Positions 36,122-40,810 of a stretch of DNA of 46,921 nt are shown here, piece by piece. Under the pieces are notes generated by a model, which saw nothing but the letters and a program-made list of their open reading frames with translations, was not told the origin of the DNA and did not search any database. The position numbers were made by a program, and so were the translations under genes. Within the stretch, counting starts at the first letter, position 1, and each line of letters begins with the position of its first letter. This DNA comes from a virus, in the IMG/VR virus record IMGVR_UViG_3300044699_000008, positions 1 to 46,921 of that record. One strand, 5' to 3'.

Positions 36122-36489
36122 TTCGGCCACGATTTCGGATACTTTTTGTGTATCTTTGGCCGATAGACTTTAGCCGGTGGACCGGCATCTTCTCTAGGCA
36201 ATGTGGTTCGCCTTGCGATTCTGGATTCTGTTGCCTCAGAAGACCTTTCCATTTCTTCTGCGATCAGATCAGGATTAGACAGAACCTCAAAAGCTCTGGT
36301 ATGAGACTCTTTTCGTTCCGCTTCAGCTTCGATGAGGGCAACAGCAGAGTTATAGGCTTCGGCCATTTCATCTATTGCCTGTTGGTTCCGTTTACCGATT
36401 TTCACCATCCCCCACCATGTTCCGATCAACCCACCAGCGAGGAACAAGTCGAATCCCCATTGGGCATACTCTAACCAATTGTAGTTCAT
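36118..36489 (-). CDS. Membrane protein with coiled coil
   Basis: 123 residues: MNYNWLEYAQWGFDLFLAGG, LIGTWWGMVKIGKRNQQAID, then a helical coil (EAEAERKESHTRAFEVLSNP) and a basic end. One membrane segment at residues 10-28. Coupled by ATGA to the SNF2 gene before and the small membrane gene after. Confidence 0.7.
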   Translation of the reverse strand: MNYNWLEYAQWGFDLFLAGGLIGTWWGMVKIGKRNQQAIDEMAEAYNSAVALIEAEAERKESHTRAFEVLSNPDLIAEEMERSSEATESRIARRTTLPREDAGPPAKVYRPKIHKKYPKSWPK

Positions 36490-38429
36490 GCTGCCTTTCT
36501 TTTCTCTTTGAGTTTACTCACCAGAGTCTTGGCATAGGTAACCCCTCGCTGGCTGTCCAGAATTGACGAAATCGCCTCCCCTCGTTCAACATTCAATTGC
36601 GCTATGGTTTCGTCAATCGTTCCCAAACTGGCTAGATTCCAGATGGTTACGTTGTGATTACGCGAGACACGGTGAGCGCGATCCTCTACCTGTTCCTGTT
36701 CGTCTGGGATGAAAGTCTGATCTGCGATCACTACATCATCGGCAGCGTCCAGCGTCAGCGAAACGCCACCGGCATGAGTGTTGAGCAGAATCACCATTTC
36801 GCCTGAGTCGCTTTGGAATTCGGCTTTGATCCTGGCACGCTCGCGGTCATTGGTTTTGCCGGTGAAAACGTAGTGCTTCACTTTCGCAGAATGAAGCTCA
36901 GAGCTTAACAGTTCGATGAACTGCGTAAACTGGCTTGCCACAATCGTTTTCGTTCCGGCGTCGATTCGATCCTGTAGGAAATCGACTATCCAGTCAATTT
37001 TGTTGGAAGGTGTTGCGGGACCAACAGATTCGGAATCGACTCGTTTCACAGAAGCATTAGCAACCTGTTTGCATCGGATCAATTCGGCGAAGACACCATT
37101 GACCGTTAGCTCGTCACCCATCGCATTCAGGGTTATGATCGCTTCCTTTTCGATTTCCTGATACTGCTTCGCCTGGCGGGTTGACATTGGAAGCCAAACC
37201 GCCACAGGTGATTTCGTATCCAAAGGATCTAGATGTGTTCCGCCATACGTTTTCGGCGGCAAATCCTTCTGAACCTCATTCTTGGTGCGGCGCACCATGA
37301 TTGGTTTCAGTTCGTTAAAGAAACGAGCTTCGTCTAGGATCTTGTCGCCCTTGACTACCGCTGGTCCGAATGGCGAATAGTTGTCCACCACACCATAATG
37401 CCGTTTGATCCATTTCCAGTAGCTCGTATATTTCTCTGGCGCAAGCCAATTCAGAGTACCCCACAGATTCTCTGTCTTCCCTCTGAATGGAGTACCCGAC
37501 ATAGCGATACGAATTCCGTTGGGAGCCAGCTTAAGTGCTCCGAGTCCTCGTCGCTGAGCCGATTGTTTCTTGAGATTTCCAGTTGCTCCAGCGAGCGTTT
37601 GATGGCTCTCATCGACAATGATTGCAGCCCATTCGATTTGGAACAGATCAGGGATACCCTCATTCACAACCCGAATGATCTTCTTGCCCTTGGCATCCCG
37701 AACATATCGGTTTGTCCCTTCTTCCAAATCAGCACGAATCCGAAGGTAGTTGGGACCGATTAGAACCCATTCCCTTTGGTTGCTGTTCTGTGTCCGAAGG
37801 TGTGCAGCTTGAATAGCTTTCCGTCGCGCTTCCGGCTTGATAGTCGAATTGATAACTGTCACAGACTCTTTCGGTCCTAGCCACTGTGCGATTTCTTCCG
37901 GCCAAGTGACGTTGACAGCGGTTCGCGGAGCAACCACTAGGATCGGTCCCCGAATATCCAATTCGATTACAGCAGCAAGGGTTTGGATCGTCTTACCCAA
38001 ACCAGGCTGATCGGCTAGCAAAACGTTTCGCTGTGCTACTAGGAAAGCTGCGCCGGGAATCTGCCACGGCTTGTCTCCCATCGCGGCTCTCAATGCTGGT
38101 CGCTGCACAGCCACCCTAGGCAGCATTGCCGACATGTCGGCAGTGATATCGTCGGGCCGAATGATGGCAGCGATACGGGCTTTCTCAGCCCTTGCCCAAT
38201 CAGCCAGACTTTTTTGGATATCCAATTTGGCTCCGAATGAATTCGCAACCAAACGGATATCTCTAGCTACCTCCATATCCAAAGGAAATAGCCAGCATTT
38301 GTTCTGAACATCCCAACGAGCGCCGGGAACCTTTTCTTTAACGGTTTCGACTACTCCCTTGTCATAAGGGAAGCGAAGCCAGATCCTCTGCTTATGAGCC
38401 AGCAGACCGATCTCCCATTTCTCTGTCAT
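36486..38429 (-). CDS. SNF2-family helicase/ATPase
   Basis: 647 residues from the ATG at 38429, which has an AAGGTG site (a TTG eight codons earlier is less likely). N-terminal HARP-like part (VPGARWDVQNKCWLFPLD), helicase motifs: NVLLADQPGLGKTIQTLAAV (Walker A near 141-147), IIVDESHQT (motif II), AMSGTPFRGKTENLWG (motif III), then TIVASQFTQFIELLSSELHS, LLNTHAGGVSLTLDAADDVV and QVEDRAHRVSRNHNVTIWNL (motif VI). A two-lobe SF2 translocase that moves on duplex DNA. In phages it may remodel forks or aid recombination. No frame break. Confidence 0.9.
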   Translation of the reverse strand: MTEKWEIGLLAHKQRIWLRFPYDKGVVETVKEKVPGARWDVQNKCWLFPLDMEVARDIRLVANSFGAKLDIQKSLADWARAEKARIAAIIRPDDITADMSAMLPRVAVQRPALRAAMGDKPWQIPGAAFLVAQRNVLLADQPGLGKTIQTLAAVIELDIRGPILVVAPRTAVNVTWPEEIAQWLGPKESVTVINSTIKPEARRKAIQAAHLRTQNSNQREWVLIGPNYLRIRADLEEGTNRYVRDAKGKKIIRVVNEGIPDLFQIEWAAIIVDESHQTLAGATGNLKKQSAQRRGLGALKLAPNGIRIAMSGTPFRGKTENLWGTLNWLAPEKYTSYWKWIKRHYGVVDNYSPFGPAVVKGDKILDEARFFNELKPIMVRRTKNEVQKDLPPKTYGGTHLDPLDTKSPVAVWLPMSTRQAKQYQEIEKEAIITLNAMGDELTVNGVFAELIRCKQVANASVKRVDSESVGPATPSNKIDWIVDFLQDRIDAGTKTIVASQFTQFIELLSSELHSAKVKHYVFTGKTNDRERARIKAEFQSDSGEMVILLNTHAGGVSLTLDAADDVVIADQTFIPDEQEQVEDRAHRVSRNHNVTIWNLASLGTIDETIAQLNVERGEAISSILDSQRGVTYAKTLVSKLKEKRKAA

Positions 38430-39530: not shown

Positions 39531-39670
39531 TGTGTGTCGGCATCGTCGGATAGACGATGCCCATGCCTATTGTACCATGCGAATAGGCTGGCCCATTAAG
39601 AGATCTCTAAGAATACGCGGGGAACATTATCCCTCCCTTTAAGTTCCCCCCCCTTACAAAACACGCGCAC

Positions 39671-39709
39671 AAATTAAAAAAGAACCGGATGAGAATACTC
39701 CGGTTCTTT
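39671..39709 (-). terminator. Strong rho-independent terminator
   Basis: On the minus strand AAAGAACCGG (39709-39700) pairs perfectly with CCGGTTCTTT (39688-39679), loop 11, followed by TTTTTTAATTT. It ends the transcript that carries the structured RNA and tRNA-Gln, and separates it from the protein genes at 39530 and below. Confidence 0.9.
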
Positions 39710-39984
39710 AGTGATCTTTCATTGGATTATCCCTGGCGAGGGTTCCCAACTTTTCCACAGGCTCCCACCTGTAATCACCACGCTCGGTTACTTTAAGGGT
39801 AACCAATCCTTTTCGCTTACCAACTACTCCACGGCTTTCAATTCAGCGAGTGGTGGCCGCCACTGCCTGCCTTACTTACCTATGAAATGGATTTCGCTTG
39901 CGGCTAGATCCATTCTTAGTTCCCCGAAGGGCTAAGAATTAGAACGCTTTCGTCAGTAAAGGGGAAAGACTTTTGCTTTTTGAA

Positions 39985-40056
39985 TCACAATGCAGGAATT
40001 GAACCTGCTACCTGTTGCTCCAGATGCAAACGCTCTGCCAATTGAGCTAATTGTGG
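39985..40056 (-). tRNA. tRNA-Gln (CTG anticodon)
   Basis: Minus strand. D arm TTAGCTCAATTGGCAGAGC, anticodon loop ATCTGGA with CTG (complement of 40021-40023), T arm GCAGG-TTCAATT-CCTGC. Acceptor ACAAT/ATTGT pairs; the outermost pair is a mismatch (or one base was lost), and the anticodon stem has one mismatch. No CCA is encoded. It sits inside the large structured RNA. Confidence 0.85.
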
Positions 40057-40520
40057 ATTTAGCTAGCGACGTGCTTCCCCGTGAAGTTTCGTATCCTTTT
40101 GAGATACAAAATGCTTCACGCCGCCCGTGCTTTCACCTGCCGGTTAATTGCACTCTAGTTTCAATTTACCTAGGCGTCCCCAGTGCGATTGATTTCGTGG
40201 ATTCTCGCGGTCCCCTGCCGGGTCTGACTTACGAATCCTTCCGCATCAAAATAGGTTTGCTTTGACGAGTGCTGCGCCGGATACGTTACCCATTGCTGTC
40301 TCCCAGTGTTACCCAGAGACACACTTTCTGCTCACCCATTCCTAACCCCGGTCGCCCCGAATTAGTTAAGAGTCTGGATTGCATAGTTTGCCAGCCGAAG
40401 CTGGTGGCGGGTAGCCAGCCCGCCTTTCCCCAGGTTGCCCTGGTTTATTGGCTATGCCCAAAGTCTTTGTAACAGTTCAGTTTTGAATGATCAGCCTAGC
40501 CGTAGTGGGCCAGGAAGACC

Positions 40521-40550
40521 AGAGTACGCGCACAACCCGCCAGCCGTCAA
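40521..40550 (-). promoter_or_regulatory. Promoter of the structured RNA
   Basis: Minus strand TTGACG (40550-40545), 18 bases, TACTCT (40526-40521). The -35 box is the same hexamer as at 35867-35872. The start would be near 40513, just before the long-range helix. It begins five bases after the stop of the exported-protein gene. Confidence 0.6.
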
Positions 40551-40555
40551 GGGGT

Positions 40556-40810
40556 TTACTGCGACGGCTTCCAGCACCCACCAGGCGTGACGCAAGGTGT
40601 GTAACCTCCCGGTCCCCATTTCCCCGGCTCATTATTAGGCGACCAGGATGGATTCGTATAGTTCCAGGGATTGCACGGGGAATACCAATGCTGTGGAATC
40701 GGAGTATTCGCACAATCCCAAAAGGAAGGGTCTGCGTTTGCGTCTGGGGAAATGGTGATGCCGGTTGCGATTACACAACCGGCCACCAATCCCATTAGGG
40801 ATTTATTCAT
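40556..40810 (-). CDS. Small exported Cys-rich protein
   Basis: 84 residues. A Sec signal peptide (MNKSLMGLVAGCVIATGITI, cleavage after ANA near residue 26) and a mature part of about 58 residues rich in Pro, Trp, Asn and Gly with four Cys (WDCANTP, SPCNPWNYTNPSW, YTPCVTPGGCW), probably two disulfides. Like small secreted mycobacterial proteins. A phage would export it from the infected cell or place it in the envelope; role unknown. It is the last gene before the structured-RNA promoter. Confidence 0.75.
   Translation of the reverse strand: MNKSLMGLVAGCVIATGITISPDANADPSFWDCANTPIPQHWYSPCNPWNYTNPSWSPNNEPGKWGPGGYTPCVTPGGCWKPSQ

Follow-up and report, generated by a model that had tools for sequence, protein, structure and literature searches.

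The locus considered here lies on the minus strand of a virus record of 46.9 kb and 49% G+C (IMG/VR record IMGVR_UViG_3300044699_000008; the window, i.e., the whole stretch of DNA that was analyzed, comprises its positions 1 to 46,921), and poses the question of what is encoded by a region at 39.67-40.51 kb that appears to be free of protein genes. A first-pass annotation, made from the DNA letters of this single record, had proposed a giant ornate noncoding RNA resembling GOLLD or ROOL, or even a new class, with its own promoter and terminator and an embedded tRNA.

Identification of a GOLLD RNA

We scanned the window with cmscan against Rfam 15 and rescanned 39560-40800 permissively, up to E = 1. 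The window yielded a match to the complete GOLLD model (RF02032; E 5.6e-63, 76 bits over the gathering score of 150) and, nested inside it, a tRNA; the permissive scan of 39560-40800 brought up nothing further. Thus, the earlier characterization as GOLLD- or ROOL-like is correct and can now be narrowed to GOLLD itself, whereas ROOL, OLE, tmRNA and RNase P RNA, the other four families named for comparison, went unmatched in 39560-40800 at E values up to 1, and the full-length RF02032 match rules out a new class: this is clearly a new member of an existing one. The plan of the class is also present, with a conserved 3′ domain, a variable linker and a less conserved 5′ domain, in a phage setting with a tRNA gene; GOLLD RNAs occur in phages or prophages and often have tRNA genes with them. 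The conserved RNA spans 40467 to about 39676, or about 790 nt, and a GOLLD is typically about 800 nt long.

The absence of a protein gene was likewise borne out: there is no ORF of at least 60 aa on the RNA strand in 39671-40477, and neither the antisense ORFs (74, 91 and 67 aa) nor those in the upstream flank (78 and 84 aa) matched anything in Pfam or PHROGs. In line with a structured RNA, the folding z-score is -3.8 for the predicted transcript (Table 1). The alternative that this is not a GOLLD, being instead another giant RNA (ROOL, OLE, tmRNA-like or a new class) or an unrecognized protein gene, has a negligible probability: even at E values up to 1 GOLLD and tRNA are the sole Rfam 15 matches, the ORFs lack family matches and the helices described below are preserved by compensatory changes. 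Hence, from its sequence, the RNA is almost certainly a GOLLD of the actinophage/mycobacteriophage branch.

Table 1. Features of the GOLLD locus in window coordinates.
Feature	Coordinates	Strand	Basis
Predicted GOLLD transcript, ~840 nt	39671..40513	-	Terminator, promoter-like site, fold z-score; 5′ end inferred from promoter-like site
GOLLD 3′ domain and linker, RF02032 model 1-416	39686..40126	-	226.4 bits; covariation
GOLLD 5′ domain, homologous to mycobacteriophage GOLLDs	40127..40467	-	Alignments, covariation
5′ multiloop, three hairpins	40381..40457	-	15/20 pairs with both-sided changes
tRNA-Gln(CTG) in GOLLD linker	39984..40056	-	ARAGORN; RF00005 55.2 bits
Intrinsic terminator: last GOLLD hairpin (loop GUAUUCUCA) extended to 11 bp, then U6	39676..39709	-	Stem count; hairpin covaries (helix 12)
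Promoter-like TTGACG-18-TACTCT	40521..40550	-	Sequence; pattern count against shuffles

Conserved structure of the two domains

When the Rfam structure of the 3′ domain was applied to 37 members, 82% of the cells were paired, as against 58% in shuffles, and 58 of the 64 pairs showed changes on both sides. Two hairpins that had been proposed from the window alone (40080-40120 and 39912-39939) are elements of this structure and both covary. A GGATT/AATCC helix suggested to close the domain (39805-39809 with 39724-39728) fared otherwise, in that its pairing is random-like (62.7% versus 61.6% in shuffled columns) and clashes with the helices of the Rfam structure. That structure also has a two-hairpin arm, whose second hairpin is absent from the window RNA, and therefore some cage contacts of this RNA may differ. 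The remaining hairpin of that arm has a palindromic GGCC/CGCG loop in 17 of 25 members, against 9.8 in shuffled loops, a count taken over related members, in some of which the hairpin is poorly delimited; for these reasons we regard the palindrome as suggestive of a kissing contact and did not adopt it as a sign of one.

Since the Rfam model covers the 3′ half only, the 5′ domain was aligned with those of 16 related GOLLDs (17 sequences). Full-length alignments place the homology with mycobacteriophage-type GOLLDs from near 40467 through to the 3′ end. RNAalifold predicted 64 pairs over the 5′ domain and the first 3′ hairpin, 42 of which show both-sided changes in one sequence or more. Strong covariation is seen in the 5′ multiloop (Table 1): 97.9% of its cells are paired, a figure biased upward by deriving the structure from the same alignment, and one that no shuffle reaches and slid controls (31-42%) fall far below. 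Its compensatory changes do not depend on the alignment-derived structure alone, and the first-pass annotation had named a three-hairpin cloverleaf here from one sequence. The long-range helix proposed along with it (40489-40502 with 39901-39910) does not hold: its 5′ arm falls outside the conserved RNA, on the upstream side, and a local GOLLD hairpin already includes its 3′ arm.

Predicted transcript ends

At the 3′ end, the anticipated terminator hairpin was found, with a stem of 9-11 bp followed by U6. The same long hairpin with U6 is seen in only one other member, the sister RNA L280 (IMGVR_UViG_3300037420_001376, the phage genome G001), with different stem letters; by the same crude rule, the last-hairpin stem of every other member measured has 2-8 bp. 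Because the long stem with U6 is confined to these two RNAs, we conclude that a terminator has grown onto the last structural hairpin of the GOLLD.

Upstream, TTGACG-18-TACTCT does occur where a promoter had been predicted (-35 at 40545-40550, -10 at 40521-40526). A scan for sigma-70 promoters did not list it, and the enrichment of the pattern TTGACN-TANNNT, which this site fits, is suggestive (five sites on the minus strand, this one included, versus 1.8 in shuffles, with 5 of 200 shuffles reaching five). Transcription from a putative promoter of its own to its own terminator is plausible from these motifs.

Relatives, phage lineage and apparent mobility

Mycobacteriophage GOLLDs were gathered by BLAST and those of viral contigs by conserved-motif patterns, with the Rfam model as a check, such that frequencies describe this sample of GOLLDs only. 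The last motif alone contributed 76 records, all of which match the family and 72 of which exceed the cut-off. On the 3′-domain tree, built from a single RNA about 400 nt long with the linker included in the alignment, the window RNA is sister to L280 (support 0.99) in a clade that includes the mycobacteriophage GOLLDs. Matches of other kinds were set aside: BLAST matches in Stenotrophomonas phages are mostly annotated tRNA-Trp rather than GOLLD; a match in a Cedecea plasmid covers the tRNA sequence only; and those of a loose pattern scan of genome contigs were chance-like and went unused, except for L141, which served as the center of a class-wide search. That search found a GOLLD in one of 395 genomes, below the cut-off (G158:C68:44655-45107, or L284; 144.5 bits, with a linker tRNA of anticodon TCA), and therefore host chromosomes tell little.

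The sampling turned up several further configurations. Two GOLLD RNAs, each scoring above 310 bits, occur in a single viral record (G433:C1:19736-20149 and 36280-36673). Divergent GOLLDs just under the Rfam cut-off are found in two records, 517 and 340 kb long (G478:C1:321798-322267, with tRNA-Gly in the linker, and G469:C1:167267-167682). In another viral record (L228 10134-10572), about 7 kb separate the GOLLD from a tmRNA (permuted type best, 143 bits), and cluster M phages also have a tmRNA near theirs. In the cluster M phages PegLeg, SlimJimmy, Reindeer, Aziz and Bricole, small hypothetical-protein genes are annotated on the RNA strand within the GOLLD 5′ domain (L154 1356-1499, L153 2356-2499, L157 1343-1486, L159 1363-1491 and L160 1335-1478); these look like spurious gene calls.

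The virus belongs with phages of actinobacteria, its helicase and DNA polymerase being 63% and 60% identical to those of the Konstantine-group mycobacteriophages. Konstantine and Patience share synteny with the window in the genes flanking the GOLLD region, and at the corresponding site they have small genes and no GOLLD match; no GOLLD was seen either in the stretches scanned of three relatives found through their helicase (L022, L027 and L029). The sister GOLLD of the related phage G001 has a different genome position and is on the other strand from the genes, and in L010 the GOLLD sits between the helicase and exonuclease genes. Given these other positions and orientation, and the lack of a match at the corresponding site of Konstantine and Patience, GOLLD appears to change place in this lineage like a movable transcription unit. 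GOLLDs of related actinophages lie at L345 4036-4526 and L010 4042-4502.

The tRNA in the linker

The embedded tRNA was confirmed by ARAGORN, which calls it tRNA-Gln with anticodon CTG, and by cmscan; it is the sole tRNA found in the 47-kb record, which may be incomplete. That tRNAs occur in the GOLLD linker has already been published (PMC12286853, PMC6582537). In our sample, ARAGORN finds one in 17 of 110 members, and RF00005 adds those of L189, L202 and L223 and a truncated one in L203. The ARAGORN isotypes are Gln(CTG), Gln(TTG), Pro(AGG), His(ATG), Met(CAT), Ser(TGA), Ser(GGA), Asn(GTT) and Gly(TCC), besides one tRNA with a TCA anticodon and copies whose anticodon has two bases. On the midpoint-rooted tree, the linker-tRNA cases fall in the clade of the window RNA (25 nonredundant members, support 0.97); in the other 41 members ARAGORN finds none. 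The tRNA-bearing linkers are 81-108 nt long. From their sequences, the cluster M linkers look like tRNA remnants, with one anticodon arm and one T arm. The GOLLD literature covered holds no description of linker isotype turnover that we could find; Weinberg 2009 and Morgado 2020 lie outside that coverage, and therefore we do not claim the turnover as new. Turnover and remnants in the slot of this actinophage-rich clade are less documented than the linker tRNA itself.

Under one explanation, the GOLLD would be a carrier from which RNase P and 3′ processing release tRNA-Gln for decoding CAG, leaving the GOLLD body as a by-product or as a remainder with a function of its own. The regular anticodon and the 55.2-bit model score of the tRNA fit this, as does the preponderance of CAG over CAA for Gln in the large genes (102 versus 67). 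However, most GOLLDs lack a linker tRNA, several related linkers hold two-base-anticodon copies that could hardly decode, and the GOLLD fold is itself strongly selected. We accordingly judge a carrier of this kind to be quite unlikely.

Probable cage assembly and possible role

The GOLLD env-38 forms a hollow cage of 14 copies, as seen by cryo-EM, in which the cap is built from the 5′ domains, the ring from the 3′ domains, and the linker lies inside; GOLLD expression rises at lysis (PMC12286853). By homology, the window RNA probably assembles in the same manner, and the joint claim, that it is a GOLLD and forms a cage, is likewise probable. A dedicated promoter would give rise to a transcript of about 840 nt with a cap-forming 5′ domain and a ring-forming 3′ domain, and copies of this RNA would come together as a hollow cage. 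The linker would then point into the cage, so that the tRNA would sit inside. During lytic growth, the role we consider most likely for such a cage would be to hold or display the tRNA, tRNA-like cargo or other translation components. That this particular tRNA acts as functional cargo or a decoy is offered only tentatively. A pseudo-tRNA inside the GOLLD of M. aubagnense gave no detectable expression (PMC6582537), a finding that argues against decoding as a general role.

A rival account with some chance of being correct, slightly above that of cargo or decoy, sees the tRNA as a neutral insert, placed in the only tolerant part of an RNA that works without it. Indeed, the cage structure shows a disordered linker (PMC12286853), the clade includes linkers without a tRNA (L272, L156, L232 and L193) and those of cluster M resemble decaying tRNAs; nevertheless, one clade repeatedly shows many isotypes in the slot, the other shows none, and the scores of linker tRNAs are similar to those of tRNAs in arrays. 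At the other extreme, the linker of the actinophage-rich branch might be a dedicated tRNA slot, repeatedly filled with tRNA genes of changing isotypes at the loop that faces the inside of the cage, in which a tRNA-like fold outlasts the working anticodon, the cage existing to carry a tRNA or tRNA-like decoy. We consider this rather doubtful; if true, such a decoy could act, for example, against host tRNA-cutting enzymes.

This member bears on the function of GOLLD cages: it lies outside a tRNA array in a 47-kb record, with an intact linker tRNA and a clear terminator. Together with relatives whose linker tRNAs are different, broken or absent, it forms a natural series on whether the cage needs a tRNA, and the lineage has laboratory relatives in the Konstantine-type phages, which grow on Mycobacterium smegmatis.

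Comparison with known systems

The window RNA shares with the GOLLD env-38 (RF02032, PMC12286853) a full 3′ domain, the two-domain plan, a variable linker, a phage setting and a predicted length of about 800 nt. It differs in carrying tRNA-Gln in the linker, in lacking the second hairpin of the two-hairpin arm, in the extension of its last hairpin into a terminator and in its mycobacteriophage-type 5′ domain. GOLLDs of cluster M phages and M. abscessus prophages (e.g., PegLeg L154 and prophiGD54-2 L003) align with it over the full length, including the 5′ domain, and those of the M. abscessus prophages also have a linker tRNA; however, both groups are located within arrays of tRNAs and have no terminator tail. 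L280 is the closest counterpart, with a sister 3′ domain, the long terminator hairpin and a linker tRNA, but that tRNA is Pro(AGG) rather than Gln, and the RNA has another genome position and an orientation opposite to the genes. Finally, ROOL RNA is likewise giant, phage-associated and cage-forming (PMC12286853), but it differs in sequence and structure and has no Rfam match in the window.
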